This document shows, one piece after another, positions 6,723 to 23,167 of a stretch of DNA of 64,000 nucleotides (the first letter of the stretch is position 1; each line of letters starts with the position of its first letter). The position numbers were made by a program, and so were the translations under genes. The stretch comes from Parvularculaceae bacterium. GTDB lineage: Bacteria; Pseudomonadota; Alphaproteobacteria; Caulobacterales; Parvularculaceae. The stretch covers positions 62,001 to 126,000 of the forward strand of contig JANQMJ010000012.1 in assembly GCA_028280115.1 (NCBI GenBank), written 5' to 3'. The notes under the pieces were generated by a model. The model worked only from the letters and a program-made list of their open reading frames with translations. It searched no databases and had not been told where the DNA came from.

Positions 6723-8024
6723 ATGGCGAAATCGCCGGGCCGAAACGCCCTGTTGTTCATATTTATCACCGTCGTGCTCAACATGATCGGCCTTGGCGTC
6801 ATCATGCCGGTGATGCCGCAGCTGATTATGGACGTGACCGGCGACGATCTCGCCCACGCCGCGCAATGGGGCGGCTATCTGACGCTCGTTTATGCGCTCA
6901 TGCAATTCATCATGATGCCGGTGATGGGCGGGCTGTCGGACCGTTACGGACGCCGGCCGGTTCTTCTGGCCTCGATGGCGGCCTACGCGTTTGATTTTTT
7001 CATCATGGCGGTGGCGCCGGTAATCAGCATTATCTTGATCGCGCGCGTGCTCGCCGGCGCCTTTGCGGCGACCTTCGCCACCGCCAACGCCTATATCGCC
7101 GACATCACGCCGCCGGAAAAACGCGCCGCCAATTTCGGCCTGATCGGCGCGGCGTTCGGTCTGGGCTTCGTCATCGGGCCTGGCCTTGGCGGTCTCCTGG
7201 GCGATCAGTTCGGACCGCGCGCGCCGTTTTATTTCGTCGCCGTCCTGGGCGCGGCGAACTTTGTGTTCGGTTTCTTGGTCCTGCCCGAAACCCTTAAACC
7301 GGAACATCGCCGGCCGTTCGACTGGAAGCGCGCCAATGCGTTCGGCAACTTCAAGCAATTTGCGCAATATCCGATCATGCTGCCCATCGCCGGGGTGCTG
7401 CTGATCGCCCAGTTGGCGCACTGGGCCTATCCTTCGGTTTGGGCCTATTACGCGGAAGAAAAATTTAGCTGGACGCCGGCGACGATCGGCGTGTCCTTGA
7501 TGTTTATCGGCTTTACGGCGGCTGTCGTGCAGGGCGGGCTGACCCGCATTATCATCCCGAAGATCGGAGAACGCGCCGCGGCCATCGGCGCCATGCTGGT
7601 GACGATGTTCGCCTATATCGGTTTTTCCCTGGCGACGACAGCCTGGATGGTCTACGTCCTGATCGCTATTTCATCGCTCGGGGGTCTCGCCCAGCCGGCG
7701 CTGCAGGGCATCATGTCGCGCACCATTCCGCCCAATGCGCAAGGCGAGCTGCAAGGCGCCATCGCCGCGGTCATGAGCATCACCATGGTGATCAGCCCGC
7801 TGGTGATGACGCAGATCTTTTCCGCCTTCATCTCGCCGGGCGAGCCGTATTCCATATTGAACGTGACAATCCTGCCGGATGGCGCGCCGTTTTATTTTCC
7901 GGGCGCGCCCTTCGTGTTTTCCGCGTTCCTGGAAATCTGCGCCATCGCCATGCTGTTCGTGGCGTTCGGCCGCATCAAGCGGCCGCGAAAGGACGCATCG
8001 GAACCGTCCAACGCCTCGGCCTAG
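6723..8024 (+). CDS. MFS exporter, TetA-like
   Basis: A 433-residue major facilitator of the 12-helix drug/H+ antiporter type. TM1 (LFIFITVVLNMIGLGVIMPV) and the loop motif GGLSDRYGRRPVL (motif A, about 65-77) closely resemble the tetracycline-exporter branch; motif C-like glycine and proline positions are visible near AAFGLGFVIGPGLGG. The substrate cannot be named from sequence. I chose the ATG at 6723, with GGAAAAGGG just upstream, over a TTG at 6702. The stop codon TAG lies inside the CTAGAG end of the following repeat. Confidence 0.88.
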   Translation: MAKSPGRNALLFIFITVVLNMIGLGVIMPVMPQLIMDVTGDDLAHAAQWGGYLTLVYALMQFIMMPVMGGLSDRYGRRPVLLASMAAYAFDFFIMAVAPVISIILIARVLAGAFAATFATANAYIADITPPEKRAANFGLIGAAFGLGFVIGPGLGGLLGDQFGPRAPFYFVAVLGAANFVFGFLVLPETLKPEHRRPFDWKRANAFGNFKQFAQYPIMLPIAGVLLIAQLAHWAYPSVWAYYAEEKFSWTPATIGVSLMFIGFTAAVVQGGLTRIIIPKIGERAAAIGAMLVTMFAYIGFSLATTAWMVYVLIAISSLGGLAQPALQGIMSRTIPPNAQGELQGAIAAVMSITMVISPLVMTQIFSAFISPGEPYSILNVTILPDGAPFYFPGAPFVFSAFLEICAIAMLFVAFGRIKRPRKDASEPSNASA

Positions 8025-8181
8025 AGTGATCTGACTTGGAATTGATTCACTTCACCATCCTTCGAGACGCAAAAATCTCCTCATCCTGAGGGTCGCCGTA
8101 AGGCGACGTCTCGAAGGACGAGGAGATTTTTGCTCCTCAGGATGAGGCTGAGTGCATCAACTTAAGTTCAGGATGCTCTAG
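8021..8181. repeat. Nested palindromic repeat (CTAGAG...CTCTAG outer, CTTCGAGAC inner)
   Basis: The outer element has imperfect inverted arms: the left begins CTAGAGTGATCTGACTTGG (8021-) and the right ends AAGTTCAGGATGCTCTAG (-8181). Inside lies a second palindromic unit of about 90 bases (8059-8146) with several paired segments: CCTTCGAGAC (8059-8068) with GTCTCGAAGG (8108-8117), AAAAATCTCCTC (8071-8082) with its complement (8120-8131), CTCATCCTGAGG (8080-8091) with its complement (8135-8146), and GTCGCC/GGCGAC at the tip. It separates two convergent genes, and both of their TAG stop codons lie in the element's ends. Confidence 0.75.
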
Positions 8182-8624
8182 CGGTCTTGCTTCCCGCCCA
8201 GGTGAAGCTGCCCGGCGGCGTCGAACAAAAACGCCGCGGAAAGCCCGAACAGCAAGAAACCATTCGCAGCGGTGGCCCCGGCGAGCAGCCGCCATTCGTC
8301 CGGCGCGAGAACGTCGCCGAAACCGAGCGTCGTGTAGCTTGCCGCCGAAAAATAAAGCGCCGTCTCAAAACTGTCGAACAGATCATAATGCAGATAGGTC
8401 CACGCCCACATGGCGATTTCAATCAAATGGGCGGCCATCAGCCACAAAACCAGGATCACCAGAACGGCGCTGTCGCGCACGAAGCGGAAGGCGCCCCAGA
8501 CGCGCCTGTTGACCGTGCGGAAGATCGCCGCCGCCGCGGCCACGAAAACACCGTGTACGAATGTCGTCGCGGCGATCAATACGCCGGAAATCGTCAATTG
8601 CAGATAAAGCTGGCTGTGATCCAT
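8178..8624 (-). CDS. Two-pore-helix K+ channel-like membrane protein
   Basis: A 148-residue protein with an ion-channel (Ion_trans_2-like) layout: a first hydrophobic helix near residues 8-30, a second near 48-70, a pore helix with a selectivity-filter-like TTLGFGD at about residues 97-103, and a last helix near 115-138. The canonical K+ filter is T-x-G-Y-G-D; Phe replaces Tyr, as in some natural channels. There is no attached RCK or CNMP domain. The start ATG follows a GGGGAG site. The stop TAG is provided by the palindromic repeat at its 3' end. It faces the MFS gene convergently. Ion selectivity is inferred from the filter only. Confidence 0.75.
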   Translation of the reverse strand: MDHSQLYLQLTISGVLIAATTFVHGVFVAAAAAIFRTVNRRVWGAFRFVRDSAVLVILVLWLMAAHLIEIAMWAWTYLHYDLFDSFETALYFSAASYTTLGFGDVLAPDEWRLLAGATAANGFLLFGLSAAFLFDAAGQLHLGGKQDR

Positions 8625-8685
8625 GACCCCGCTCCCCGTCGACGGTTGAAATATTGTGCCGCCGCCGGCGCGCGATCAAGTCCGG

Positions 8686-9060
8686 TCAGTCGTTGTTTCG
8701 GCCATTTTTTAGGGACTGCAAAATCAGCTTGAGCCGGCCGTTGGCGCGTTTGACCGCCTCGTCGATCCCGGCCAGGATTTCCGCCATTTCCGCGCGTTCT
8801 TCCGCATCGGCGTTGAGGATCGATCTTGCTTTTTTGATTTCCGCCTCAAGCGCGCTCAATTTGGCTGACGCAGCAGCATCGCTTTCCAGCGCAGCGCCGG
8901 GAACACGCTCTTCAGGCTCGCTGCCCAGATCCCCGCCAGGCGCGTCAGGCTTGGGGTCGGTCATGCGCCTTGCCGCCCAAGCGGCAAGCAACCCAAGCAG
9001 AAAGGCGATGACGGCAACCGCCCACTGGCTTCCCCCTTGCGTTAACCAATCTTGGCCCAT
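8686..9060 (-). CDS. Membrane-anchored coiled-coil protein, unknown function
   Basis: A 124-residue protein with one membrane helix at about 13-31 (AVAVIAFLLGLLAAWAA), a Pro/Asp/Glu-rich linker (about 32-58) and a C-terminal helical region (about 60-118) with heptad-like leucine, isoleucine and alanine spacing that suggests a coiled coil. No enzyme motif is present. It could be a small envelope-associated scaffold; no function is claimed. It follows infC on the same strand after a 150-base spacer, and the channel gene follows it after 61 bases. Confidence 0.6.
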   Translation of the reverse strand: MGQDWLTQGGSQWAVAVIAFLLGLLAAWAARRMTDPKPDAPGGDLGSEPEERVPGAALESDAAASAKLSALEAEIKKARSILNADAEERAEMAEILAGIDEAVKRANGRLKLILQSLKNGRNND

Positions 9061-11218: not shown

Positions 11219-11974
11219 ATGCCGCCCGCCATGCACCCTTCCCCCGCCTCTTTCATCGACGGACCCCACGGCCGCCTCGCCTATCGCCGGCGCACCGGGG
11301 CGGGACCGGGCGTTGTCTGGTTCGGCGGGTTCGTCTCGGACATGCTCGGGACCAAGGCGGGCTTTCTCGACGACTGGGCAGAGCGGCGCGGCCGGGCCTA
11401 TTTGCGGTTCGATTATTCCGGCCATGGGGAATCCGACGGCCGGTTCGAGGACGGCTGCATCGGCGACTGGGCCGCGGACGCTCTCGCGGCTTTTGACGGG
11501 CTGACCGAGGGCCCGCAAATCCTGGTGGGCTCGTCCATGGGCGCCTGGACGGCAAGCCTTGTGGCGCTTGCCCGGCCGGAACGGGTCGCCGTGGCGGTCT
11601 TTATCGCCCCGGCGCCTGACTTTACCGAAAAACTCATGTGGCCTTCGTTTTCGGAAGAGCAGCGCAATACCCTGATGCGCGACGGCCGGCTCGAACTGCC
11701 GTCCGACTATGGCGACGAGCCCGACATTATTACCCGCAAGCTGATCGAAGACGGCCGCAACCATCTCGTCATGACCGGCGCCGTGGCGATGCGCGCGCCG
11801 GTGCGCATCCTCCAGGGCATGCAGGACGACGTCGTGCCCTACGCCCACGCGCTCGCCTTCGCCGATCAGATCGAAAGCCAGGATGTGGACATCGTCCTGA
11901 GCAAGACCGGCGATCATCGCCTGTCGAGCCCGGCCGATCTCGAACGGCTGGCGGCGACGCTGGATGCGCTATGA
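11219..11974 (+). CDS. Alpha/beta hydrolase
   Basis: A 251-residue serine hydrolase of unknown substrate. The fold signatures are in order: the oxyanion-side VVWFGGFVSDM (about 31-41), the strand and turn LRFDYSGHGESDG (about 60-72), the nucleophile elbow GSSMG (about 102-106), the acid QDDVV (about 201-205) and the base GDHRLSS (about 232-238). The layout is close to small thioesterase or ABHD10-like depalmitoylases, but that is a loose resemblance. The first ATG is at 11219; a second at 11231 is equally possible, and neither has a good ribosome site. Its end overlaps the end of the convergent Fic-like gene by six bases. Confidence 0.85.
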   Translation: MPPAMHPSPASFIDGPHGRLAYRRRTGAGPGVVWFGGFVSDMLGTKAGFLDDWAERRGRAYLRFDYSGHGESDGRFEDGCIGDWAADALAAFDGLTEGPQILVGSSMGAWTASLVALARPERVAVAVFIAPAPDFTEKLMWPSFSEEQRNTLMRDGRLELPSDYGDEPDIITRKLIEDGRNHLVMTGAVAMRAPVRILQGMQDDVVPYAHALAFADQIESQDVDIVLSKTGDHRLSSPADLERLAATLDAL

Positions 11975-12583
11975 TCCTTTGAGAGAACGGGCAGAATCGA
12001 CAAACGCCAAAATCGGATCGAATTCGCCTTTATCAGCGGCCCGCAACGCGGCGATATATTCATCGCGTCGGGCATTGCTTCTCAACAGATCATGTCCCGC
12101 CGCCCAATCGATCGGCGGACGGTCAAAATACGCCCGCAAATACTCATCCGCCATCATCCGGCCATGGCGCCCGTTGCCGTTTGGGAAACAGTGAATCTGC
12201 ACCAGACGATGATGAAATCGCGCCGCAGCCTCGAGCGGTGAATATGTTCCGTTCTCCGCCCAATAGCACGCATCGTCCAGCAGCATGCGAAGCCGCTCGC
12301 CGATCTGCGTCGGATCGACGCCGATGGTTTTTTCCGTTTGCCGGAATGTCCCGGCCCAGCGCCACACATCGCCGAAAAGCCTGCGATGGAGCTCACGCAC
12401 AAACGCTTCGCTGAGCACATCCCTTTTGCGGCGACGTTTCAACCAGATGAGACCGCTTGCCACATTGGCCTGTTCAAGCGCATCCAGTTCGCCGCGCGTG
12501 GCGACATGCTTGAACTTAAGCCCTACCGTTTCATCGGGATCAAGCGGTGTGGCGCCGTCGGGCTCATCATCGGCGCCATTCAT
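11969..12583 (-). CDS. Fic-domain mobile mystery protein B
   Basis: A 204-residue Fic protein of the mobile mystery protein B type. Fic enzymes usually transfer AMP from ATP onto hydroxyls of target proteins. The loop here is HCFPNGNGRHGR (residues 131-142): the catalytic His131 and Arg139/Arg142 are kept, but Asn occupies the position where active Fic enzymes usually have Asp or Glu for Mg2+. The start at 12583 was chosen because its ATG overlaps the stop of the partner gene (ATGA) behind a GGGAAAAAG sequence. The pair behaves like a toxin-antitoxin module in layout (HTH protein first, Fic second). The name reflects frequent occurrence on mobile DNA. Targets are unknown. Confidence 0.85.
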   Translation of the reverse strand: MNGADDEPDGATPLDPDETVGLKFKHVATRGELDALEQANVASGLIWLKRRRKRDVLSEAFVRELHRRLFGDVWRWAGTFRQTEKTIGVDPTQIGERLRMLLDDACYWAENGTYSPLEAAARFHHRLVQIHCFPNGNGRHGRMMADEYLRAYFDRPPIDWAAGHDLLRSNARRDEYIAALRAADKGEFDPILAFVDSARSLKGS

Positions 12584-13050
12584 TCTTTTTCCCAAAAATC
12601 AGACGGCGGATCGCGCAAAAGATCGCGCGCGAGATCTTTTATTTCATCTTCCAGCGCATCTTTACTGAGCACCTGTTGCTCCAGCGCCATATGCGTGCTG
12701 GCGCGCATCACAATCGCCTGCGCTTTTTTCCAGGCCTGTTTTTTCAGCGCATCATCGATCCCGCCCTCCGCCGGGATGACGGCGTAGACAAACCGGCACC
12801 CCATCGCCTCGGCCATGGTTTTCATCGTGCGCAGCGTAGCGCGCTCATTTTGTTCGGATCGTTCAATCGACGAGATGTTGGCGCGCGTACTGCCGACCAT
12901 GCGGCCAAGCTGCGCGGCGGAAATGCCGAGCGCCTTTCGCGCGCTGGCGATCCAGCCCTCGCGCGGTTGCTTAAGGTCCTGCATGGTCGCGACAGCGGCC
13001 CTGTCGATCATGGCCTGATATTGCTTTCGCGCTGTCGTTTTCGCATTCAT
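12580..13050 (-). CDS. HTH-domain mobile mystery protein A
   Basis: A 156-residue DNA-binding protein. A helix-turn-helix of the Xre/Cro type spans about residues 34-75, with ISAAQLGRMVGSTRANISSIER as its core (quoted in part here: LGRMVGSTRANISSIE). The C-terminal part (about 85-156) is helical and probably contacts the partner. Such proteins occur almost always next to the Fic-like partner B, and by layout this one is the likely autorepressor and antitoxin. The upstream region is strikingly AT-rich for this genome. The ATG at 13050 has only a weak ribosome site. Function is inferred from context. Confidence 0.82.
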   Translation of the reverse strand: MNAKTTARKQYQAMIDRAAVATMQDLKQPREGWIASARKALGISAAQLGRMVGSTRANISSIERSEQNERATLRTMKTMAEAMGCRFVYAVIPAEGGIDDALKKQAWKKAQAIVMRASTHMALEQQVLSKDALEDEIKDLARDLLRDPPSDFWEKE

Positions 13051-13245: not shown

Positions 13246-13287
13246 TTGCTACAACTGTCGCAATAGGCTAGTATCGCGACAATTGTA
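13246..13287 (+). promoter_or_regulatory. blaI promoter with paired BlaI-type operators
   Basis: TTGCTA (13246-13251) and TAGTAT (13269-13274) form a sigma70-like promoter with a 17-base spacer. It is bracketed by two inverted 12-base arms: TACAACTGTCGC (13250-13261) and GCGACAATTGTA (13276-13287). They match at 11 of 12 positions as inverted copies. Each contains an ACA-NN-TGT core, the second being the perfect palindrome ACAATTGT, in keeping with TACA/TGTA-type BlaI/MecI operators. The left arm overlaps the -35 and the right sits just after the -10, an arrangement expected for autorepression. Confidence 0.7.
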
Positions 13288-13322
13288 ACGGGCGTCCCTG
13301 CGCCTGGGGCGGCGAGCAAGGC

Positions 13323-13709
13323 ATGAGCGAAAAACCCTCCGACAATCCGACCAAGCCTGAACTGGCGATCCTAAAACTCTTGTGGCGCGGCAAGGTGATG
13401 AACGCGCGGCAAATCCATACCCAAATCGCCGACGACTTCGACTGGTCCTATTCGACCGTGCGCACCGTGCTCGAGCGCATGACCGAAAAAGGCCTAGTCT
13501 CGAAGACGCCTCGCGACGGGGTCAATATCTATGAAGCCCAGATCGGCAAGGTCGCCCTGCTTGGCCGCATGATCGCGGATTTTTCAAAACGCGTGCTGGA
13601 ACTCGACGGCGCGCCCGCGGCGGCGTTTTTCGCCGACTCTAAACTTTTGTCGGAAGACGAGCTTGATGAGCTCGAAGCCATTTTGCGCAAAGAGGAGAAG
13701 GAAAGATGA
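13323..13709 (+). CDS. blaI: BlaI/MecI/CopY-family repressor
   Basis: A 128-residue winged-helix repressor. The DNA-binding domain (about 8-80) includes ELAILKLLWRGKVMNARQIH and SYSTVRTVLERMTEKGLV, the family's recognition-helix region. The C-terminal dimerisation part (about 85-128) is acidic and helical. In the family, signalling through an M56 membrane protease cleaves or inactivates the repressor. Here the next gene is such a protease and overlaps by four bases (ATGA), the classical blaI-blaR1 arrangement. Operator-like arms flank the promoter upstream, so autorepression is likely. The start ATG follows GAGCAAGG. Confidence 0.9.
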   Translation: MSEKPSDNPTKPELAILKLLWRGKVMNARQIHTQIADDFDWSYSTVRTVLERMTEKGLVSKTPRDGVNIYEAQIGKVALLGRMIADFSKRVLELDGAPAAAFFADSKLLSEDELDELEAILRKEEKER

Positions 13710-16057
13710 GCGCGATCGTCGAACCCTTCTTTATATGCCTTCTGACCTCGATGATCTGGGCGCCGATCGTCTTTTTGATTGCCGGACAGCTTCAACAGAA
13801 AGAACCGCCCGCCTTCGCCGACAAGATCTGGCCCGCCGCGCTGTTGATCGCCGCCCTGCCCGCGCTCATGGCGCCGGTCGCGGCCGCCTTCGGCCTGTCG
13901 TTGCGCGCGCAAGGCGCGCCGGAACCGCCCATGGCGGTCCTTCCCGCCGCCGACGTTGCGCCGGTGATTGCGCAAGCGCCGGCGCCCGCAGCGGCGGTCC
14001 CGGCGATGGACATCGCCGCGCTCCTGGAAGCGAGCGCGGCGCTTTATGTTTACGGCTTTTTGCTGTTCCTGGTGCTCGGCGCCGTGCGGCTGGCGGGTTT
14101 TTCCTATCGCGTGCGCTATGCCGTCGATCTCGACGAACCGCGGCTCAGAGCCGGGCTTGACGCCTGGCGCCGCCGCATGGGGCTGCGGCAAGCGCCGCGC
14201 TATGCCTTTTCCGATGCGGTTTCGAGCGTGTGCGTGCACGGATTTTTCCGGCCGGTCATATTAATGCCCATGTATCTGCTCGACCGGGTCTCGATTGACG
14301 ACGCGGTGTTGATGGGCGCGCATGAGATGGCGCATATCAAGCGCGGCGACACCTGGCTGTTCGCGTTCACGCGGATTGTCAAAGCGATCTTCTGGTTCAA
14401 CCCGTTTATTCACCGCATCAGCGCCCGCGCCCATCTCGCCGCCGAACAGGCTGCGGATGCGCTGGTCATTGCCCGCGGCGTCAATCGCCGGCACTACGCC
14501 AAATGCTTCGTCGAGGGCCTGCGTTTTTCCGCCGGCCTGCGGCCGAACGAGCAAGCGCTGGTTCCTTCTTTCACGCCGTTCGACAAGCGCTCGCGACGCG
14601 AACGTTTGGACGCGATCCTGTCGGGCGCCGGCGGCGCGGCTATGATCAGCCTCAAGGGCAAGATCGGTCTTGCGCTGAGCGTTGTCGCGGCCAGCGGGCT
14701 CGCCTTCGCCCAGGCCGCCTTCGCCGTCGCGCCGAAACCGCCCGAAGAAGCGCTGCCGGCGATCCCGGTCGAGGGCAAGATCACCTTCGGCTTTGGCGCG
14801 GAAGATGTGAAGCTCGGCGCCTACCGGCGCACCCATCAAGGCGTTGACATCAAGGCGGCGCGCGGAACGCCGGTGCGCGCGGCCGGCGACGGCAAAGTGA
14901 TCGATGCGACGCGACGCTATAAGGGCTCAAAGGCCTGGGGCAATGTCGTCGTCATCGATCACGGCCACGGCCTCATCACCCGTTACGCCCATCTCGACAG
15001 CTACGCCGTCAAAAAGGGCGACATCGTCAAGGCCGGCGATACGATCGGCGCGGTCGGTTCGAGCGGCGTCGTCAGCGGACCGCATCTGCATTTCGAAGTC
15101 ATCCGCGACGGCGTTCATATCGACCCGACGCCGCTGGTCGCCGCCAAGCCCATGCCCGCGCCCAAGCCGCTGCCAGAGATCAAGTCGGCCCGCGCCGCCA
15201 TCGTCGCGCCCAAGATCGCAATCGCGCCGACGCCAGCCGCGTCCGTCGAACCGTCGGTCGGCGAGCGCCTGGCGGAAAAACTCAAAAACCGTTTCAATCA
15301 TCTCGACGACCAGTTCGCCGATCTGACCGCCGATCTCGACGGCCTGACCGTCAGGATCGACAACGAATTCAACGGGTTTGAAGGCTTCACGGTCGCGCTT
15401 GACGATATGGATGTGCAAACGTTCATTGAGGCGCAAGAACTCGCCTTGAACGCGTTGGATCAGGTGCGCGACATTGAGTATCTGTCCGAAGAAGACCAAG
15501 AAAAAATCCGCGAGGCCAAACGCGCGGCGCTGGAAAAAGCGCGCGAGGCCGAACGTCGCGCCGAACGCGTTGAACGCCGCGCCGAGGAAACCGTCGAGCG
15601 GGCCGAGCGTTATCGCGAGCTCACCGAGGAGGAAATCGAACGCATCGAAGACGAGGTCGAGCGCGCTCGGGAATGGGCGGAGGAAGAAGCCGAGCGCGCC
15701 ATGGAACGCGCTGAAGAATTGGCCGAACGCGCCCGCGAGCGCGCCGAAGAGGAAGCCGAACGCCAAAGAGAACACGCCGAACGACAGCGCGAACGCGCCG
15801 AACGCGAACGCGAGCGCGCCATCGAACGCGCTGAACGAGACAGGGAGCGCGCCGAGGCCGCGCGTGAAGACTATGCGCACCGCTATAGCTATGCCTACGA
15901 TGACGAAGACCACGGCGCGGCGGAAGAACATCTTGAAGCGCATGCAGAGGCCTTGCGCAAAGCCAAGGCGCAAATCGAACGGGAAATCGCCGAAATCGAG
16001 CGCCAGCGCGCCGAGCTGAAGCGCAAAGAAAAAGATAAAGACAAATCCGGAAAGTAA
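13706..16057 (+). CDS. M56/M23 metallopeptidase fusion (BlaR1-like) with coiled-coil tail
   Basis: A 783-residue envelope protein with three parts. Residues 1-340 form a BlaR1-like M56 peptidase: membrane helices near 5-27, 42-65 and 110-130, and the zinc motif HEMAH at 206-210. After a membrane segment near 320-340 comes an M23/LytM endopeptidase domain (about 355-475) with all zinc ligands visible: His377 and Asp381 (HQGVD), and His460 and His462 (HLHFE). From about 520 to 783 the chain is an Arg/Glu-rich coiled coil with repeated ERA-like units and a basic Lys end. In BlaR1 the C-terminal domain is a penicillin sensor; here a peptidoglycan-hydrolase fold takes its place. It probably senses or cuts cell wall and relieves BlaI. 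M23/M56 fusions exist elsewhere, so the architecture is rare but not unique. Confidence 0.85.
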   Translation: MSAIVEPFFICLLTSMIWAPIVFLIAGQLQQKEPPAFADKIWPAALLIAALPALMAPVAAAFGLSLRAQGAPEPPMAVLPAADVAPVIAQAPAPAAAVPAMDIAALLEASAALYVYGFLLFLVLGAVRLAGFSYRVRYAVDLDEPRLRAGLDAWRRRMGLRQAPRYAFSDAVSSVCVHGFFRPVILMPMYLLDRVSIDDAVLMGAHEMAHIKRGDTWLFAFTRIVKAIFWFNPFIHRISARAHLAAEQAADALVIARGVNRRHYAKCFVEGLRFSAGLRPNEQALVPSFTPFDKRSRRERLDAILSGAGGAAMISLKGKIGLALSVVAASGLAFAQAAFAVAPKPPEEALPAIPVEGKITFGFGAEDVKLGAYRRTHQGVDIKAARGTPVRAAGDGKVIDATRRYKGSKAWGNVVVIDHGHGLITRYAHLDSYAVKKGDIVKAGDTIGAVGSSGVVSGPHLHFEVIRDGVHIDPTPLVAAKPMPAPKPLPEIKSARAAIVAPKIAIAPTPAASVEPSVGERLAEKLKNRFNHLDDQFADLTADLDGLTVRIDNEFNGFEGFTVALDDMDVQTFIEAQELALNALDQVRDIEYLSEEDQEKIREAKRAALEKAREAERRAERVERRAEETVERAERYRELTEEEIERIEDEVERAREWAEEEAERAMERAEELAERARERAEEEAERQREHAERQRERAERERERAIERAERDRERAEAAREDYAHRYSYAYDDEDHGAAEEHLEAHAEALRKAKAQIEREIAEIERQRAELKRKEKDKDKSGK
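15535..15860 (+). repeat. Imperfect GAACGCGCC-type codon repeats within the coiled-coil tail
   Basis: Within the metallopeptidase gene, units encoding Glu-Arg-Ala and Glu-Arg-Glu recur with small variation (GAACGCGCC, GAGCGCGCC). The low-complexity DNA also yields misleading open frames on other strands. It is the coding source of the charged coiled coil rather than a separate element. Confidence 0.5.
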
Positions 16058-16185: not shown

Positions 16186-19100
16186 ATGGGCCTTACGCGG
16201 CTTTGCCTGAAAAACCCGGCGGCGGCCGGGGTCGTACTCGCGATCATCACGCTGCTCGGCGTGTTATCGATAACCCGCCTGCCGGTGCAGCTTTTCCCAT
16301 CGATCGAGCGTCCGCAAATCAGCATCTGGACGGAATGGCGGGCGGCTTCTCCGCGCGAAATCGAGAGCGAAATCACCGAGCCGATCGAGCGCGAACTGCG
16401 CGGCATTCCGGGCATGGTCCAAATGCAGTCCTGGTCGAACGCCGGCGGGGTCTGGATGAATCTCGAATTCGCCCTCGGCGCCGACATGGACCAGGCGTTT
16501 ACGGAAGTGAATTCGCGCCTCCAGCGGGTGCGCGGCCTGCCCGCCGAAGCAGAACGTCCCCGGGTGAATTTGGGCGGCGGCGGCAACGCCGGCGAAACAT
16601 TGATCTATTTGTTTTTGCAACGGCTGCCGAGCAACACCGAACCCGGCTCCAACCTCACCGCTTTCGCCGAACAGCGCATTCGCCCCGAAATCGAAGCCGT
16701 CCCCGGCGTCGCGGGCGTCGACGTCAATGCCGACGACGGCGAACCGATCGTTCATATCGAATTCGACCCGTTCCTCGCGGCGCAACTCGGCGTGACGCTC
16801 GATGAGATCTCGCAAAATGTAAATCGCTCTGCAGACGTGACGGGAGGATCGGTCGAAGTCGGGCGGCGCAATTATACGCTTCGGTTCGAAGGCCGTTTCG
16901 ATGCGTCGCAATTAAATGAAACGATCCTCGCCTGGCGCGACGGCGCGCCGGTCAAACTCGGCGATATTGCGGAAATTTCCGTACAGCCGGACGATTCCGG
17001 CGGCGCCGTCTACCAAAACGGCAATCCCGCGATCGGCATGCGCGTTATTCGCGAACCCGGTTCGAATACGCTTGAGGCCATCGATGCGTTGACGGAAGTG
17101 CTCGACCGGCTGAATGCGGGACCGCTCGCCCAGAAAGGCTATTCAATCCAGAAGAGCTTTGACCCATCGGTCTTTATCAAGCGCGCGATTTCGCTGCTCA
17201 CCAACAATCTGATGCTGGGAATCATGCTCGCCGTCGGCGCGTTATGGCTCTTCCTGCGCCGCTCCGCGGCGACGCTGATCATCGCCGCGGCGATTCCCAT
17301 CTGCATGATGGCCACGATTGTCGTCCTTAACCTCTCCGGGCGTTCGATCAACGTGATTTCGCTCGCGGGCCTGGCTTTCGCCACCGGCATGGTGCTCGAT
17401 GCGGCGATTGTCGTTCTGGAAAACTACGTCCGTCTGCGCGAGGACGGCCGCAAGCCCTTCGAAGCGGCGCAAACCGCTGTGGGGCAGGTTTTCGGCGCGC
17501 TCTTCGCGTCCACCGTCACCACGGTCGCGATCTTCATCCCGATCATGTTTTTTGAAGACGTCGAAGGCCAGCTGTTCGCCGATCTCGCGCTGACGATCGC
17601 CATCGCCGTTTCCTTCAGTCTGGTCGTCGCCGTCACCTTGCTGCCGACGGGCGCGCGCCTTTTCATCAAAAAGGAGGCCGGGGGGAAGAATGGCGGACGG
17701 CCGCAAATGGTAGAGACGATCGCCGATTTCATCATGACGGCGACGGCGACCAATCCGCGCCGGCTGGCGCTTGTCGGCGGATTGATCGGCGCGCCGATCG
17801 CGATTTCCTTCCTGCTGTGGCCGCAGCTCAATTACCTGCCGCCGGTCAAACGCGATGCGGTCGATGCGTTTATCGGCCTGCCGTCCGGCGCCAGCGCGGA
17901 CATGGTGCGCGAAGAAATCGCCGAAGTAATCGTCGAACGCCTGCAGCCCTATATGGATGGCGAGAAAGAACCGTCGCTGCGCAACTATTACCTCTTCACC
18001 GGGTCGTGGGGCGGCAATACCGGCATCCGCATCAACGATCAGTCCCGGATCGACGAAATGGTCAAGATCGTCAACGAGGAAATCCTCGCCGGTTTTCCCG
18101 ACACCCGCGTGTTCGCCAGCCAGGGCAATCTGTTCGGCAATTGGGGCGCGGCCGGCTCGATCAGCCTTGAACTTCAAGCCGCCGATTTCGACGCGCTTGG
18201 CGACGCGGTGCCGGCCGCCATCGACGTCATCCAGGAAGCCCTGCCCGGCGCGCAGGTCTGGCCCAATCCCGATCCGCAGATCGTTACGCCGGAATTGCGG
18301 CTTCTGCCCAATGACCGCCGCATCGCCGAAGTGGGTATGACGCGCGATGCTGTCGCCCGCGCCGTGCGTGCCCTTGGCGACGGCCAGTGGCTCGGCGAAT
18401 TCTTCCATGAGGACGGTCGCATCGACATTTACCTGCGCGCCAAGGAATGGACCGAACCGGAATTTCTCGGCACGGCGCTGATTGCAACGCCCACGGGCGC
18501 CGTGGTGCCGCTTGGCGAACTCGTCGCCATAGAGCGCGGCGTCGGCCCGCAGCAGATCCGCCGCCTTGACGCGCGCCGAACCATCACGCTCGGCATTACG
18601 CAGCCCGAAGGCATGGCGCTGGGGCCGGCGGTGGACATCCTCAGACAGAACGCCGAGTCGCGGCTTTACGAGGTGCTCCCGCAAGGCGCCTCGCTGAAAT
18701 GGGGCGGCGATGCGGACTCGCTGGCGCGCGCGGTAAAAAACCTCGGCAGTAATTTCCTGCTCGCCATCGTTATCTTGTTCCTGATCATGGCGGCGCTGTT
18801 CAAATCGGTGAAGGATTCATTCCTCGTCATCGTCACGCTGCCGATGGCGACGGTCGGCGGCATCCTCGCCATTCGCGGCGCCGATCTTGTGAGCGACCTG
18901 CCGCTCGACCTGCTCGGCATGATCGGCTTCATCATTCTTCTCGGCCTGGTGGTGAACAACGCCATTTTGTTGGTCGCCCAGACCCGCGCGTCCGAAGCGG
19001 AAGGCAAGTCGCGGCCCGAAGCGGTGCACGAAGCGCTGAAACTGCGCATCCGGCCGATCTTCATGTCGATGTCGACGTCGCTCATGGGCATGCTGCCGCT

Positions 19101-19278
19101 GGTGCTCTCGCCCGGCGCCGGCAGTCTCATCTATCGCGGCCTTGCTACGGTCATCGTCGGCGGCATGGCCGTCTCGACCATCTTCACCCTGCTCTTGTTG
19201 CCGGCGCTCCTGCAACTGGGCGCAAGGCCGGCGCTTGCGCGCTTGCCCATAGCCGACGCTCCGCAGCCCGCCCAATAG
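16186..19278 (+). CDS. RND efflux transporter permease subunit
   Basis: A 1030-residue inner-membrane pump of the HAE1/AcrB-like RND superfamily, driven by protons and working with a periplasmic adaptor and an outer-membrane channel. TM1 (GVVLAIITLLGVLSI) near residue 14, two large periplasmic loops, and TM blocks at about 335-500 and 860-1010 are visible. TM4 reads GMVLDAAIVVLEN, so the proton-relay pair is Asp-Ala rather than the Asp-Asp of AcrB; TM10 has GLVVNNAILLV. The start has a GGGAGAG site. The gene precedes its adaptor by 16 bases. The upstream BlaI unit ends 128 bases before, so co-regulation is possible. The substrate is unknown, and no outer-membrane channel gene is adjacent. Confidence 0.92.
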   Translation: MGLTRLCLKNPAAAGVVLAIITLLGVLSITRLPVQLFPSIERPQISIWTEWRAASPREIESEITEPIERELRGIPGMVQMQSWSNAGGVWMNLEFALGADMDQAFTEVNSRLQRVRGLPAEAERPRVNLGGGGNAGETLIYLFLQRLPSNTEPGSNLTAFAEQRIRPEIEAVPGVAGVDVNADDGEPIVHIEFDPFLAAQLGVTLDEISQNVNRSADVTGGSVEVGRRNYTLRFEGRFDASQLNETILAWRDGAPVKLGDIAEISVQPDDSGGAVYQNGNPAIGMRVIREPGSNTLEAIDALTEVLDRLNAGPLAQKGYSIQKSFDPSVFIKRAISLLTNNLMLGIMLAVGALWLFLRRSAATLIIAAAIPICMMATIVVLNLSGRSINVISLAGLAFATGMVLDAAIVVLENYVRLREDGRKPFEAAQTAVGQVFGALFASTVTTVAIFIPIMFFEDVEGQLFADLALTIAIAVSFSLVVAVTLLPTGARLFIKKEAGGKNGGRPQMVETIADFIMTATATNPRRLALVGGLIGAPIAISFLLWPQLNYLPPVKRDAVDAFIGLPSGASADMVREEIAEVIVERLQPYMDGEKEPSLRNYYLFTGSWGGNTGIRINDQSRIDEMVKIVNEEILAGFPDTRVFASQGNLFGNWGAAGSISLELQAADFDALGDAVPAAIDVIQEALPGAQVWPNPDPQIVTPELRLLPNDRRIAEVGMTRDAVARAVRALGDGQWLGEFFHEDGRIDIYLRAKEWTEPEFLGTALIATPTGAVVPLGELVAIERGVGPQQIRRLDARRTITLGITQPEGMALGPAVDILRQNAESRLYEVLPQGASLKWGGDADSLARAVKNLGSNFLLAIVILFLIMAALFKSVKDSFLVIVTLPMATVGGILAIRGADLVSDLPLDLLGMIGFIILLGLVVNNAILLVAQTRASEAEGKSRPEAVHEALKLRIRPIFMSMSTSLMGMLPLVLSPGAGSLIYRGLATVIVGGMAVSTIFTLLLLPALLQLGARPALARLPIADAPQPAQ

Positions 19279-19294: not shown

Positions 19295-20416
19295 ATGAAC
19301 CGAAAACTCGTCATCGCCGGGACCGCCGGCGCCATCCTCATCGCCGCGGGAATGGGCGCATTCATTTATGGCGACACGGTCGGCGCAAGCGCGGGCGCCG
19401 AGGAAGCCAGCGGCGCGCCGCAGGGCCCGCCGCCAGCGACCGTCGCGGTGGCCAAGGCCGTCCAGCGTCAACTGGCGCCGCGCTCGGAAACGCCCGGCTC
19501 GGTGGTGTCCACAAGAGACAGCCTTGTTTCCGCTGCGACCTCGGGAAAGATCGAATGGGTCGCCGAAGTGGGGGCCGAAGTCGAAGAAGGCGACGTTATC
19601 GCCCGCATAGAAACCGCCGACGCCGAATTAACGCGCGACAACAGTGCGGCGGAAGTCGCGCGCCTGCGCGCCCGGCTGGAATATCTCGACAGCCTTTACA
19701 AGCGCTATGTGGGCCTGGGCGAGGAAGCCGGCGAATCGGAAGCGACCCTCGATGAAATGCGCGCCAACCGGGACGAAGCCCGCGAGGCGATGACACAGGC
19801 CGAGGTTGCGCTTCGCCGCGCGCAAATCAATCTCGCCCGCACCGAGGTCGAAGCGCCGTTCGCGGGCCGCGTCGTCTCGCAAGAGTCCCAGATCGGCGAG
19901 TTCGCCAATCCGGGCACGGAGCTTGTCCGTCTCGTCGACACGCGCCGGCTGGAAGTCACGGCGCGCACGCCGGCTGGGCTCGCCCGCAATATCGCGGCGG
20001 GCGACATGATCAGAGTGACCAACGGCGCCGAAACGGCGCAGGCCGCGGTGCGCGCCGTGGTGCCCGTCGGCGACGCGCTGTCGCGCTTGTTGGAATTGCG
20101 CCTCGAACTGCCGGAAACCGACTGGTATATCGGCTCCGCGGTCCGCGTCAGCCTGCCGGCGGCGGCGGCGCGCACGGTCACCGCCGTGCCGCGGGACGCG
20201 CTGGTGCTGCGCGCCGACCGCATCAGCGTTTACGTCATCGATGCGGACAACAACGCCAAACGCGTCGATGTGGAGCTTGGGGCCGCCGAAGGCGACTTCA
20301 TCGAAGTCATCGGCGACATCAATCCCGGCGACAGCGTGGTGATCCGCGGCGGCGAGCGCCTGCGCGACGGCCAGGCGGTGACGATTTCGACACTCTCCGG
20401 CGAGCCTTCGGTGTAA
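19295..20416 (+). CDS. RND efflux periplasmic adaptor (membrane fusion protein)
   Basis: A 373-residue HlyD/AcrA-type adaptor linking the RND permease to an outer-membrane channel. A signal anchor at about residues 4-25 (KLVIAGTAGAILIAAGMGAF) is followed by a barrel-sandwich half (about 60-100), an alpha-helical hairpin (about 105-180, EVARLRARLEYLDSLYKRY), the second half with VEAPFAGRVVSQE, the beta-barrel domain and a membrane-proximal end. The start follows AAAGGATCGG. The order permease-then-adaptor is the reverse of the common one. A 242-base terminal-inverted-repeat element begins 3 bases after the stop. Confidence 0.9.
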   Translation: MNRKLVIAGTAGAILIAAGMGAFIYGDTVGASAGAEEASGAPQGPPPATVAVAKAVQRQLAPRSETPGSVVSTRDSLVSAATSGKIEWVAEVGAEVEEGDVIARIETADAELTRDNSAAEVARLRARLEYLDSLYKRYVGLGEEAGESEATLDEMRANRDEAREAMTQAEVALRRAQINLARTEVEAPFAGRVVSQESQIGEFANPGTELVRLVDTRRLEVTARTPAGLARNIAAGDMIRVTNGAETAQAAVRAVVPVGDALSRLLELRLELPETDWYIGSAVRVSLPAAAARTVTAVPRDALVLRADRISVYVIDADNNAKRVDVELGAAEGDFIEVIGDINPGDSVVIRGGERLRDGQAVTISTLSGEPSV

Positions 20417-20670: not shown

Positions 20671-20952
20671 TTACGCGTCTTCGCCAAACCGGTCGTTCAC
20701 GAGCTTGACCAGCGAGTCGACCGCTTCGGCCGCTTGCGGGCCCGTGGCGGAGATCTCAAGCGTCGCGCCCTGGCTGGCGAGCAACATCAACAAATCAAGC
20801 TGAGAATCGGCCGAGGCGGTGCGATCCTGATTGCGCACGCTGACGACCGCGTCATACGACTTCGCCAGGGCCGAGAAATACCGCGACGGACGAATATGCA
20901 GGCCGAGCCTGTTCTGGATGACGGCGGTCGCTGTGACTGGCTCGTCGCTCAC
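20671..20952 (-). CDS. ptsH: HPr-family phosphocarrier
   Basis: A 93-residue phosphocarrier of the phosphotransferase system. The active-site His19 lies in NRLGLHIRPS (the usual form is GLHARPA). The equivalent of regulatory Ser46 is probably Ser50 in SADSQLDLLML, but the usual KSIMGLMML context is changed. Start is GTG at 20950-20952, since no in-frame ATG occurs between it and the stop of the EIIA gene 15 bases upstream. It most likely forms a regulatory, not sugar-transporting, PTS with the EIIA-Man protein. No hprK or ptsI is present in the window. Confidence 0.88.
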   Translation of the reverse strand: MSDEPVTATAVIQNRLGLHIRPSRYFSALAKSYDAVVSVRNQDRTASADSQLDLLMLLASQGATLEISATGPQAAEAVDSLVKLVNDRFGEDA

Positions 20953-20967
20953 GGGATGGCTCGGCCT

Positions 20968-21378
20968 TTATTCCGTTGTCTCGCCGGACAGCACCCAGGA
21001 GGCGACGTTGATATATTTGCGGCCCGCCTCGTGGGCGGCTTTGACCGCGTCGTCGAGTTCGTCATTGGCGCGCACCGAGGCGAGCTTGATCAGCATCGGG
21101 AGATTGACGCCGGCGACGACTTCGGCGTTCGCTTTTTCCATCACCGAGATGGCGAGATTGGACGGCGTGCCGCCGAACATGTCCGTCAGGATGATGACGC
21201 CGTCGCCGGCGTCAACGTCCTTGGCCGCATCGAGAATGTCCTGGCGGCGCTTTTCCATATCGTCGTCGGGGCCGATGGACACGGCCTTGACCTGCTCTTG
21301 CGGTCCCACGACATGTTCGGCTGCGGACAAAAACTCCTCCGCAAGACGCCCGTGCGTGACGACAACCAGCCCAATCAT
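20968..21378 (-). CDS. PTS EIIA-Man-type protein
   Basis: A 136-residue EIIA of the mannose/fructose family, phosphorylated by HPr on His9 (VVTHGRLAEE). The fold signature LTDMFGGTPSNLAI (about 63-76) is intact. In alphaproteobacteria this gene with ptsH forms a regulatory phosphorelay near chvG/chvI that lacks membrane sugar permease components; none is seen here. It is 15 bases upstream of ptsH and 70 bases downstream of the sensor kinase gene, a distance too short for hprK, which usually lies between them. Confidence 0.9.
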   Translation of the reverse strand: MIGLVVVTHGRLAEEFLSAAEHVVGPQEQVKAVSIGPDDDMEKRRQDILDAAKDVDAGDGVIILTDMFGGTPSNLAISVMEKANAEVVAGVNLPMLIKLASVRANDELDDAVKAAHEAGRKYINVASWVLSGETTE

Positions 21379-21448
21379 GCGCGACTCCGAGTTGATTCGA
21401 GCCCCTTATGGTGCGTTGGAAATCGTATATGTCCACTAAAATCGTCGG

Positions 21449-23167
21449 TTAATCGGCCGGCAGTTCGACGATAAACCGGGCGCCCAAACGCGGGCCCGCC
21501 GGATCGTCTGGGTTTTCGAGCCGGTTTTCGGCGTAAATCCGTCCGCCATGGGAATTGACGATCTGCCGCGAGATGGCCAGTCCGAGCCCGGAATTGTTGC
21601 CGAAGGCCGAGCCGCGCGGCCGTTTGGTGTAGAACCGTTCGAAGACCGCTTCGAGGTTTTCCGGCGGCACGCCCGGCCCTTCATCGTCGACGATCAGCCG
21701 CGCCAGGCGCGAGCGCTGCGCCGGGGCTTCCAGATAGACCCGCACCCTGCCGCCGTCGGGACTGAACGAGCGGGCGTTGTCGATCAGATTGCGCACGACC
21801 TGGCTCAGCGCGGTAGGATTGCCGAGCACGTATACCGACCGGACGGGATCGTTGAACATCACGGTCGCATCGCCGTCTTTCGCGGTGTCTTCGTACATCG
21901 AAACGATGTCCCTGAGGAGACGGGTCAGATCGACGGCTTCGCGTGTTTCCCGCGCAAGCTCGGCGTCCAGGCGCGAGGCGTTTGAAATGTCCGTAATCAG
22001 ACGATCCATCCGCGCGACGTCTTTTTGAATGACCTGCATCAGCTTTTCCTGCTGCTCGGGCGTTTTGGCGATGGCGAGGGTCTCCGATGCGCTGCGGATC
22101 GAGGTCAGCGGGTTTTTCAATTCATGGGCGACGTCCGCAGCGAAGCTTTCGATGGCGTCGATGCGCGCATAGATCGCCTTGGTCATGGATTTGAGGGACG
22201 AGGCCAGTTCGCCGATTTCATCCTTGCGGTGCGTAAAATCGGGAATCCGCGCGCGGCCGGCGGCGGCGATCCCTTCGCGCACCTTGTCGGCGGCGATCGC
22301 GAGCTGGCGGATCGGCTGAGCGATCATCGCCGTCAACAAGAGAGAGGATAGGATCGCCGCGACGACCGCGAATCCGAAAATCGGCAAGATCGCCAGGCGC
22401 GCTTCCTCCACCAATGTGTCGATGCCGCCGCTTTCCGCCGTCACCAGCCCGTAAATCGCCTGCACACGGCGGATCGGCACGGTCACCGAGACGACCAGTT
22501 CGCCTTCTTCGTTGAGACGCACCGACGCCGCGCCGCGCTCTTCGGCGAAGGGCGAGGACGCCAGCGCCTGGTTGAGTTCGCTTTCCAGCGTGATGCGCGC
22601 GGCCTGCATGCGATAATCGCGCGAGAAAAGCCGCAAGATCGTATGGCCGACGTCGCCCCAGCGCAGGCGGCGGGCGCCGTCGTCGTCGATCGACGGCAAC
22701 GCCTCGGCGATGATCTTGTCCTCGCGCAGGACGACATCCTCGATCAGCAGCGCATTGGCGTCACTGACCGGCGGATTTTCAAAGGTCTGCGGCGCGTTGA
22801 AGATGCGCACCCGGCCTTCGAAACTGTCCCACACGCGATTGAAAACCTCGCGCACGTCGGTCTGGGAGAGCGCCAGGGAACACAGCGCGGTCTCTTCGCC
22901 CTGGCGGGCGATGTCGGCTTCGTCCACCGGCTGGCAGGAGCTTTCGTCGATCGCCACCTGGCCGAGCACGTCGGCGATGATCTGCGCCTGGGCGCGCACG
23001 CCCTCAAGTTTGGCCTGAATGAGCCCGTCGCGATATTGGGTGAGCGCGAAGGAGCCGACCAGCAAGATGAACAGGCCGATCAGATTGGCGACAACGATGA
23101 TCAGCGTCAGGCGCGAAAGCGCCACGCGCGCGCGGCGTTTTCGCACCCTGCCGCTATCGCCGTTCAT
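21449..23167 (-). CDS. chvG: ChvG/ExoS-type sensor histidine kinase
   Basis: A 572-residue inner-membrane kinase. TM1 lies at about 21-43, a periplasmic sensor region at about 45-255, TM2 at about 259-282, then HAMP (about 283-335), the dimerisation domain with DVAHELKNPLTS (phosphorylated His348) and a catalytic ATPase domain with NLIDNARSFS, DEGPGVPP and GLGLAISRQI. ChvG senses acid or envelope stress through periplasmic ExoR in rhizobia; exoR is not in the window. The gene follows the response regulator by 6 bases, so they share a transcript. Assignment to ChvG rests on the domain order and the neighbouring HPr/EIIA genes. Confidence 0.88.
   Translation of the reverse strand: MNGDSGRVRKRRARVALSRLTLIIVVANLIGLFILLVGSFALTQYRDGLIQAKLEGVRAQAQIIADVLGQVAIDESSCQPVDEADIARQGEETALCSLALSQTDVREVFNRVWDSFEGRVRIFNAPQTFENPPVSDANALLIEDVVLREDKIIAEALPSIDDDGARRLRWGDVGHTILRLFSRDYRMQAARITLESELNQALASSPFAEERGAASVRLNEEGELVVSVTVPIRRVQAIYGLVTAESGGIDTLVEEARLAILPIFGFAVVAAILSSLLLTAMIAQPIRQLAIAADKVREGIAAAGRARIPDFTHRKDEIGELASSLKSMTKAIYARIDAIESFAADVAHELKNPLTSIRSASETLAIAKTPEQQEKLMQVIQKDVARMDRLITDISNASRLDAELARETREAVDLTRLLRDIVSMYEDTAKDGDATVMFNDPVRSVYVLGNPTALSQVVRNLIDNARSFSPDGGRVRVYLEAPAQRSRLARLIVDDEGPGVPPENLEAVFERFYTKRPRGSAFGNNSGLGLAISRQIVNSHGGRIYAENRLENPDDPAGPRLGARFIVELPAD

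Follow-up and report, generated by a model that had tools for sequence, protein, structure and literature searches.

A BlaI-paired, BlaR1-type M56 protease with an M23 domain in place of the penicillin-binding sensor in a Parvularculaceae bacterium

The BlaR1/BlaI system is best known as a switch for antibiotic resistance, which staphylococci use to detect penicillin. In BlaR1, autocleavage occurs at the Ser283-Phe284 bond (PMC9834060), and in Bacillus licheniformis, repression by BlaI is relieved by a peptidoglycan dipeptide (PMC3305447). The M56 domain is a rare partner of M23 domains (under 1 %), and a role for it in peptidoglycan cleavage has not been shown (PMC9662197). The survey that lists the M56/M23 architecture (PMC9662197) assigns it no function and does not describe a coupling to BlaI, operators or a regulon, and we met no account of a BlaI-M56-M23 system in the literature searched.

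The locus described here lies in a 64-kb window, by which we mean the whole stretch of DNA that was analyzed, from a Parvularculaceae genome of 3.0 Mb (30 contigs) that encodes a single BlaI and a single M56 protein over the family cut-off. A first-pass annotation of this DNA had reported BlaI coupled to an M56-M23 fusion, and the pair is real: Pfam finds both proteins, and the HEMAH motif at residues 206-210, His377, Asp381, His460 and His462 all lie at the positions given in that annotation (Table 1). To these features we add His429, a charged helical tail that follows the M23 domain, and two conserved operators before blaI. Our preferred reading, to which we assign a probability of roughly 55%, is that the locus encodes a derepression circuit of the BlaR1 type, with a zinc-bound periplasmic M23 (LytM) domain and a long helix taking the place of the beta-lactam sensor.

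Table 1. Features of the blaI locus, with positions in the window
Feature	Position	Strand	Basis
Putative blaI promoter core, TTGCTA (-35), 17 nt, TAGTAT (-10)	13246..13274	+	conservation
Operator O1, GCTACAACTGTCGC, 12/12 to GCKACANNTGTMGC, overlaps -35	13248..13261	+	motif scan
Operator O2, GCGACAATTGTAAC, 11/12, just 3' of -10	13276..13289	+	motif scan, genus conservation
blaI, winged-helix repressor, 128 aa	13323..13709	+	PF03965, 78.7 bits
Predicted BlaI cleavage site Phe102|Phe103 (P1' Phe)	13626..13631	+	aligned to MecI Asn101-Phe102
M56-M23 membrane protease/sensor, 783 aa	13706..16057	+	4-nt overlap (ATGA) with blaI stop
M56 (BlaR1-type) domain, aa 13-270	13742..14515	+	PF05569, 102.4 bits
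HEMAH zinc site of M56, aa 206-210	14321-14335	+	inside M56 domain
Predicted autocleavage site Ser288|Phe289 of M56-M23	14567..14572	+	aligned to BlaR1 Ser283|Phe284
Fourth transmembrane helix (TM4), ends AQAAFA-V	14663..14734	+	hydropathy, column conservation
M23 domain, aa 376-474	14831..15127	+	PF01551, 113.6 bits; conservation; Foldseek
Long helix predicted in the periplasmic tail, rich in E/R/A, aa 595-726	15488..15883	+	low-confidence model secondary structure, composition
RND efflux permease	16186..19278	+	PF00873, 634.7 bits; synteny in genus, genera g3 and g4
RND periplasmic adaptor (membrane-fusion protein)	19295..20416	+	TIGR01730, 189.8 bits, above cut-off

We compared both proteins with their counterparts in BlaR1/BlaI and MecR1/MecI. 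A profile of 33 M56-M23 members matched the BlaR1 cryo-EM entry 8exp (E=6e-20), and in this alignment H206, H210, E247, D251, D215, Y264 and R300 were invariant among the 33 members, pairing in that order with BlaR1 H201, H205, E242, D246, D210, Y261 and R294. The fusions accordingly contain the H-E-x-x-H and E-x-x-x-D gluzincin motifs along with the Asp210, Tyr261 and Arg294 equivalents, and the equivalents of these residues are named as catalytic in the BlaR1 structure paper (PMC9834060). BlaR1 Phe284 aligns with Phe289, which is Phe in 32/33 members. The window BlaI matches MecI in the PDB (E=2e-8), the P1' residue of its predicted cleavage site is Phe in 38/41 loci, and with its winged-helix Penicillinase_R domain, ACA-NN-TGT operators and P1' Phe it belongs to the PF03965 group. 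Against the blaR1_generic NCBIfam model the fusion scored 42 bits (cut-off 400), and the BlaI/MecI equivalog models (NCBIfam exception) gave at most 39 bits (cut-offs 180-250). Hydropathy places transmembrane helices at about residues 1-30, 40-66, 102-136 and 320-343, which is the BlaR1 topology and leads us to predict that the M23 domain and the tail are periplasmic. A penicillin-binding (class D-like) sensor is absent from M56-M23, in which Pfam finds only M56 and M23. As judged from these alignments, the cytosolic machinery is that of BlaR1, and the difference is limited to the predicted outside sensor; M56-M23 is a protein that would work like BlaR1, yet it is not a beta-lactam receptor.

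Upstream of blaI, a TTGCKA-17-TAGNNT element between the two operators is conserved across the genus, and the promoter was called from this conservation, as its core fails a sigma-70 consensus scan. The spacing between the centres of O1 and O2 is 28 bp and constant through the genus, and it is 19 bp in one sister genus. Within the window, O1 and O2 are the sole sites that score at least 11/12. Sites of this quality precede blaI in 35 of 41 loci, compared with an average of about 0.15-0.17 for permuted palindromes, and none of 99 permuted palindromes reached the counts observed at blaI, tonB or the M16 peptidase gene described below. Conservation is confined to the operator 14-mer (1.5 bits per column, versus 0.1-0.4 in the flanks). 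We also considered as a regulon seven perfect CGACAATTGTCG palindromes recovered with a TACAAYTGTCG scan (1 mismatch), which we rejected because they sit in a dispersed repeat, GCGGTCCGCCCCGACAATTGTCGGAGCC... This intergenic repeat, with the core GCGGTCCGCCCCGACAATTGTCGGAGCCTGCG, occurs in at least seven copies in the source genome (G000; copies L062-L068 at C4:287240, C16:580, C19:207526, C26:77708, C28:31996, C29:126068 and C30:5599), and its perfect palindrome mimics a BlaI operator.

The coupling of the fusion to BlaI was borne out by a survey of the order, in which blaI lies directly upstream and on the same strand in 39 of 41 M56-M23 loci, mostly with a 4-nt overlap, and 1.7 kb upstream in the two exceptions. 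The architecture was found in every same-genus genome sampled; all 200 sampled genomes of the order gave a match, many of them only to a stand-alone M23 gene. Outside the order, BlaI-M56-M23 was found in one Clostridia MAG (L239) and one Croceivirga MAG (L274, Bacteroidota). The surroundings of the locus include, just upstream of blaI, a toxin-antitoxin-like pair on the minus strand (11969-12595 and 12580-13050), in which a Fic-domain protein overlaps an Xre-type HTH protein; tblastn gave no match to either one in the syntenic relatives that we searched. Downstream of the blaI-RND block, HPr, a mannose-type PTS EIIA and a sensor histidine kinase are encoded on the minus strand (20671-23167), and their synteny with the block is conserved through most of the genus.

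In a class-wide sample, all 13 clearly M56 matches (L366-L378) adjoin BlaI, and their C-termini differ: M23 in L366, TonB_C in L372, DUF3471 in L374, a charged tail without M23 in L367, L368, L371, L373 and L375, and no C-terminal module in L369, L370 and L376-L378. From these sequences, M23 is one of several predicted periplasmic modules on a BlaI-M56 chassis. In some M56 proteins linked to BlaI a periplasmic domain is missing altogether, which indicates that a sensor is not always needed.

We next consider what the M23 domain contributes. By analogy with LytM, we take His377, Asp381 and His462 to be the zinc ligands and His429 and His460 to be the catalytic histidines. The first-pass annotation had counted His460 among four intact zinc ligands; the residues are indeed present, but in our assignment this one is catalytic. 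The zinc triad (HxxxD and HxH motifs) is generally kept, being found in 40 of 41 M56-M23 members. His429, the histidine of the YAHL motif, is H in 22 of the 40 triad-keeping fusions and Q, S or R in the other 18. Stand-alone M23 proteins with the triad have H at this position in 76/77 cases, a control set drawn from a profile scan with a narrower alignment, whose matches were mostly stand-alone M23 genes, and one that may favour canonical members because M23 motif patterns were used to retrieve it; in the source genome's own stand-alone M23 proteins with the triad, the residue is always H. A tree built from only the M56 part requires at least five changes between H and non-H, with one falling within the window's genus (L040-L042). 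Zinc is thus kept while catalysis is repeatedly lost, a pattern that suits a binding module more than a hydrolase and suggests that M23 is less an obligatory cutter than a binding sensor that holds zinc. The recurrent loss of His429 in domains that keep zinc also supplies naturally occurring variants with which binding could be told apart from cutting. In one locus (L047 of genome G094, ORF 6787-8931), the M23 region is without any zinc or catalytic residue, and this locus retains M56 (HELAH), BlaI, operators and RND genes despite the dead M23.

The window protein itself carries all five residues, and its M23 may be active as an enzyme. Foldseek matched the domain to ShyA, Pgp3 and the LytM domain of DipM, and its closest solved relatives are active enzymes. 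These observations would suit a model in which M23 is an effector, that is, a working DD-endopeptidase that is made only when BlaI repression is relieved and is perhaps freed by signal peptidase, while M56 senses something else. The end of TM4 (aa 333-343, nt 14702-14734) bears an AQAAxA-V motif that is strongly conserved in most members and resembles a signal-peptidase I site (A-x-A), so that the M23 part might be released to the periplasm by a cut after TM4. However, the replacement of His429 in so many zinc-keeping fusions argues that cutting is not the conserved function, and a mere effector would need no fusion to a BlaR1-type protease, for which reasons we regard the effector model as unlikely. 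The first-pass proposal of a peptidoglycan-status switch acting on BlaI remains the best reading given the whole BlaR1 apparatus, although its M23 domain does not hold up as a general cutting sensor, considering the substitutions at His429 and the lost ligands of L047.

The tail after M23 comprises ~300 residues, is charged and helical, and includes a predicted helix of ~130 residues. All 17 members of the RND-linked clade in which M23 is intact have it, and most other members lack it. When tested as a salt-bridged single helix, the tail showed i,i+4 pairs no more commonly than shuffled sequences, and an AlphaFold model of M56-M23 from 4 sequences reached a pLDDT of 55.7, which is too poor for mechanistic use. 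The tail could be the true sensor, directed towards the outer membrane or the RND pump, with M23 merely anchoring it to the wall. Such an arrangement would account for the tail's presence throughout the M23-intact RND clade and for L367 and L368, which belong to another family of the same order and have BlaI, an operator, M56 and a charged tail without M23. Most M56-M23 proteins elsewhere in the order are tail-less, yet they keep BlaI and the operator, and we therefore consider this arrangement quite unlikely. Nonetheless, the first-pass identification of M23 as the sensor has to be softened, since other BlaI-linked M56 proteins bear different modules or none and the helical tail is a second candidate.

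We then examined operator sites at other promoters. Across 28 genomes of the genus, GCKACANNTGTMGC is not commoner genome-wide than its reversed control; without such an excess, the candidate regulon was built on recurrence at orthologous promoters, and counts alone were not used. A tonB gene (193 aa) beside S-adenosylhomocysteinase has the operator in 13 of 22 orthologues of the genus (permuted mean 0.05), and the tonB of the window's genome has GCTACATAAGTAGC upstream (11/12, one mismatch). The operator was found before 0/8 other TonB paralogues and at 0/8 loci of tonB orthologues from other genera. For a TonB-dependent receptor-like protein (~710 aa, PF00593), 6/7 orthologues have the operator, compared with 0/10 paralogues of the receptor, and the copy in the window's own genome has a perfect site (C19:32140). 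An M16 peptidase has it in 7/26 cases, mostly in one subclade (permuted mean 0.01). Other matches, which we leave outside the candidate regulon, occurred at an S9 peptidase, a DUF-type membrane protein, an EF-P neighbour and a secreted esterase (~300 aa, PF00756), which in three genomes of the genus (L142, L144 and L165) has a perfect operator match within ~30 bp of its called start. We conclude that the candidate regulon is lineage-specific and envelope-directed, with BlaI presumably binding at these sites, and we suggest that the switch controls outer-membrane transport genes rather than resistance.

The sites at tonB and the receptor could instead be those of a different regulator that recognizes a similar palindrome, in which case BlaI would control its own operon alone. 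ACA-NN-TGT is a common winged-helix palindrome, and the CGACAATTGTCG form of it found in this genome is part of a dispersed, unrelated repeat, both of which lend this explanation some weight. We nevertheless find it improbable, as the sites share the full 14-mer with the same flanks common to blaI promoters, the window's genome has one BlaI, and the recurrence is orthologue-specific. In a sister genus, one locus (L031) has a tonB gene 102 bp behind the M56-M23 gene, and in another family of the class, a BlaI-linked M56 protein (L372:1198-2880) ends in a TonB_C domain (PF03544, 34 bits). Together with the tonB operators, these arrangements hint at a wider connection between BlaI and TonB.

The RND genes invite a different interpretation. 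The first-pass annotation had pointed to RND neighbours, an association that holds in the window's clade and is confined to it: the genes for the permease and the adaptor come after the pair in the genus and sister genera g3 and g4, but not in more distant loci. An operator-like site precedes the RND gene at 6 loci in the genus and sister genera, and none lies directly before the window's own RND gene. Conceivably, a cell-wall drug or damage induces the RND pump, much as BlaR1 induces beta-lactamase, which would explain both the gene order and the operators found before some RND genes. Other families, however, have no RND genes near the pair, the sensor protein has no penicillin-binding domain, the window's RND gene has no operator of its own, and the other operator-marked genes have transport or periplasmic rather than resistance functions. 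Antibiotic-responsive efflux is consequently the explanation that we consider very unlikely.

We return to the derepression circuit as the preferred reading, one in which the switch would respond to the state of the cell wall or envelope. From the domains, catalytic residues, cleavage-site residues, operators and operator recurrence at orthologous promoters, we infer BlaI binding, cleavage, a ligand and the direction of the response as follows. Dimeric BlaI on the two operators that bracket the promoter would shut off blaI-m56m23 and the RND genes behind, and in the genus it would also repress tonB and the TonB-dependent outer-membrane receptor, as well as the M16 peptidase in some species. 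The M23/helix module would bind or lose a cell-wall ligand, for which a stem peptide or cross-link of peptidoglycan is the likeliest candidate, and the change would pass via TM4 to the cytosolic M56 site. M56 would then autocleave before Phe289 and cut BlaI before Phe103, and the envelope-transport genes would be induced until new BlaI restored repression. More tentatively, and with somewhat less than even confidence, we propose as a broader possibility that zinc-holding, often non-cutting M23 receptors bind peptidoglycan and control TonB energisation and outer-membrane receptors via a BlaR1 protease, with modules (M23, TonB_C, DUF3471, coiled coil or none) swapped between lineages.

The pair is a conserved chromosomal system across a proteobacterial order; its external part is a peptidoglycan-enzyme module, and operators precede genes of the TonB system. 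If the proposal is true, the state of the cell wall would be wired directly to the regulation of TonB-dependent transport, and the system would suggest a role of the BlaR1 chassis outside resistance and offer a second sensor-to-protease coupling for comparison with BlaR1 structures.

Among known systems, the LytM/M23 peptidases (ShyA, Pgp3, DipM and MepM) share the M23 fold and zinc ligands, as indicated by Foldseek and sequence, whereas here M23 is tethered to a BlaR1-type protease and its second catalytic histidine is often replaced. EnvC, NlpD and Csd2 are non-cutting M23 regulators (PMC9662197) that resemble the fusions in replacement of catalytic histidine, but the fusions differ in keeping the zinc ligands. 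B. licheniformis BlaI provides an earlier example of a BlaI circuit that responds to a cell-wall fragment (PMC3305447); that fragment acts on BlaI in the cytoplasm, whereas here a periplasmic M23 is proposed to read the wall. A further likeness is to BlaR1/BlaI and MecR1/MecI of Staphylococcus and Bacillus, with which the window pair shares a repressor paired with an M56 protease that has four TM helices and every catalytic residue, aligned Phe residues at the autocleavage and BlaI cleavage sites, and ACA-NN-TGT operators. In contrast to those systems, the window protein has M23 and a helical tail instead of a penicillin-binding sensor, and we predict control of TonB, an outer-membrane receptor and RND genes rather than of beta-lactamase or PBP2a.
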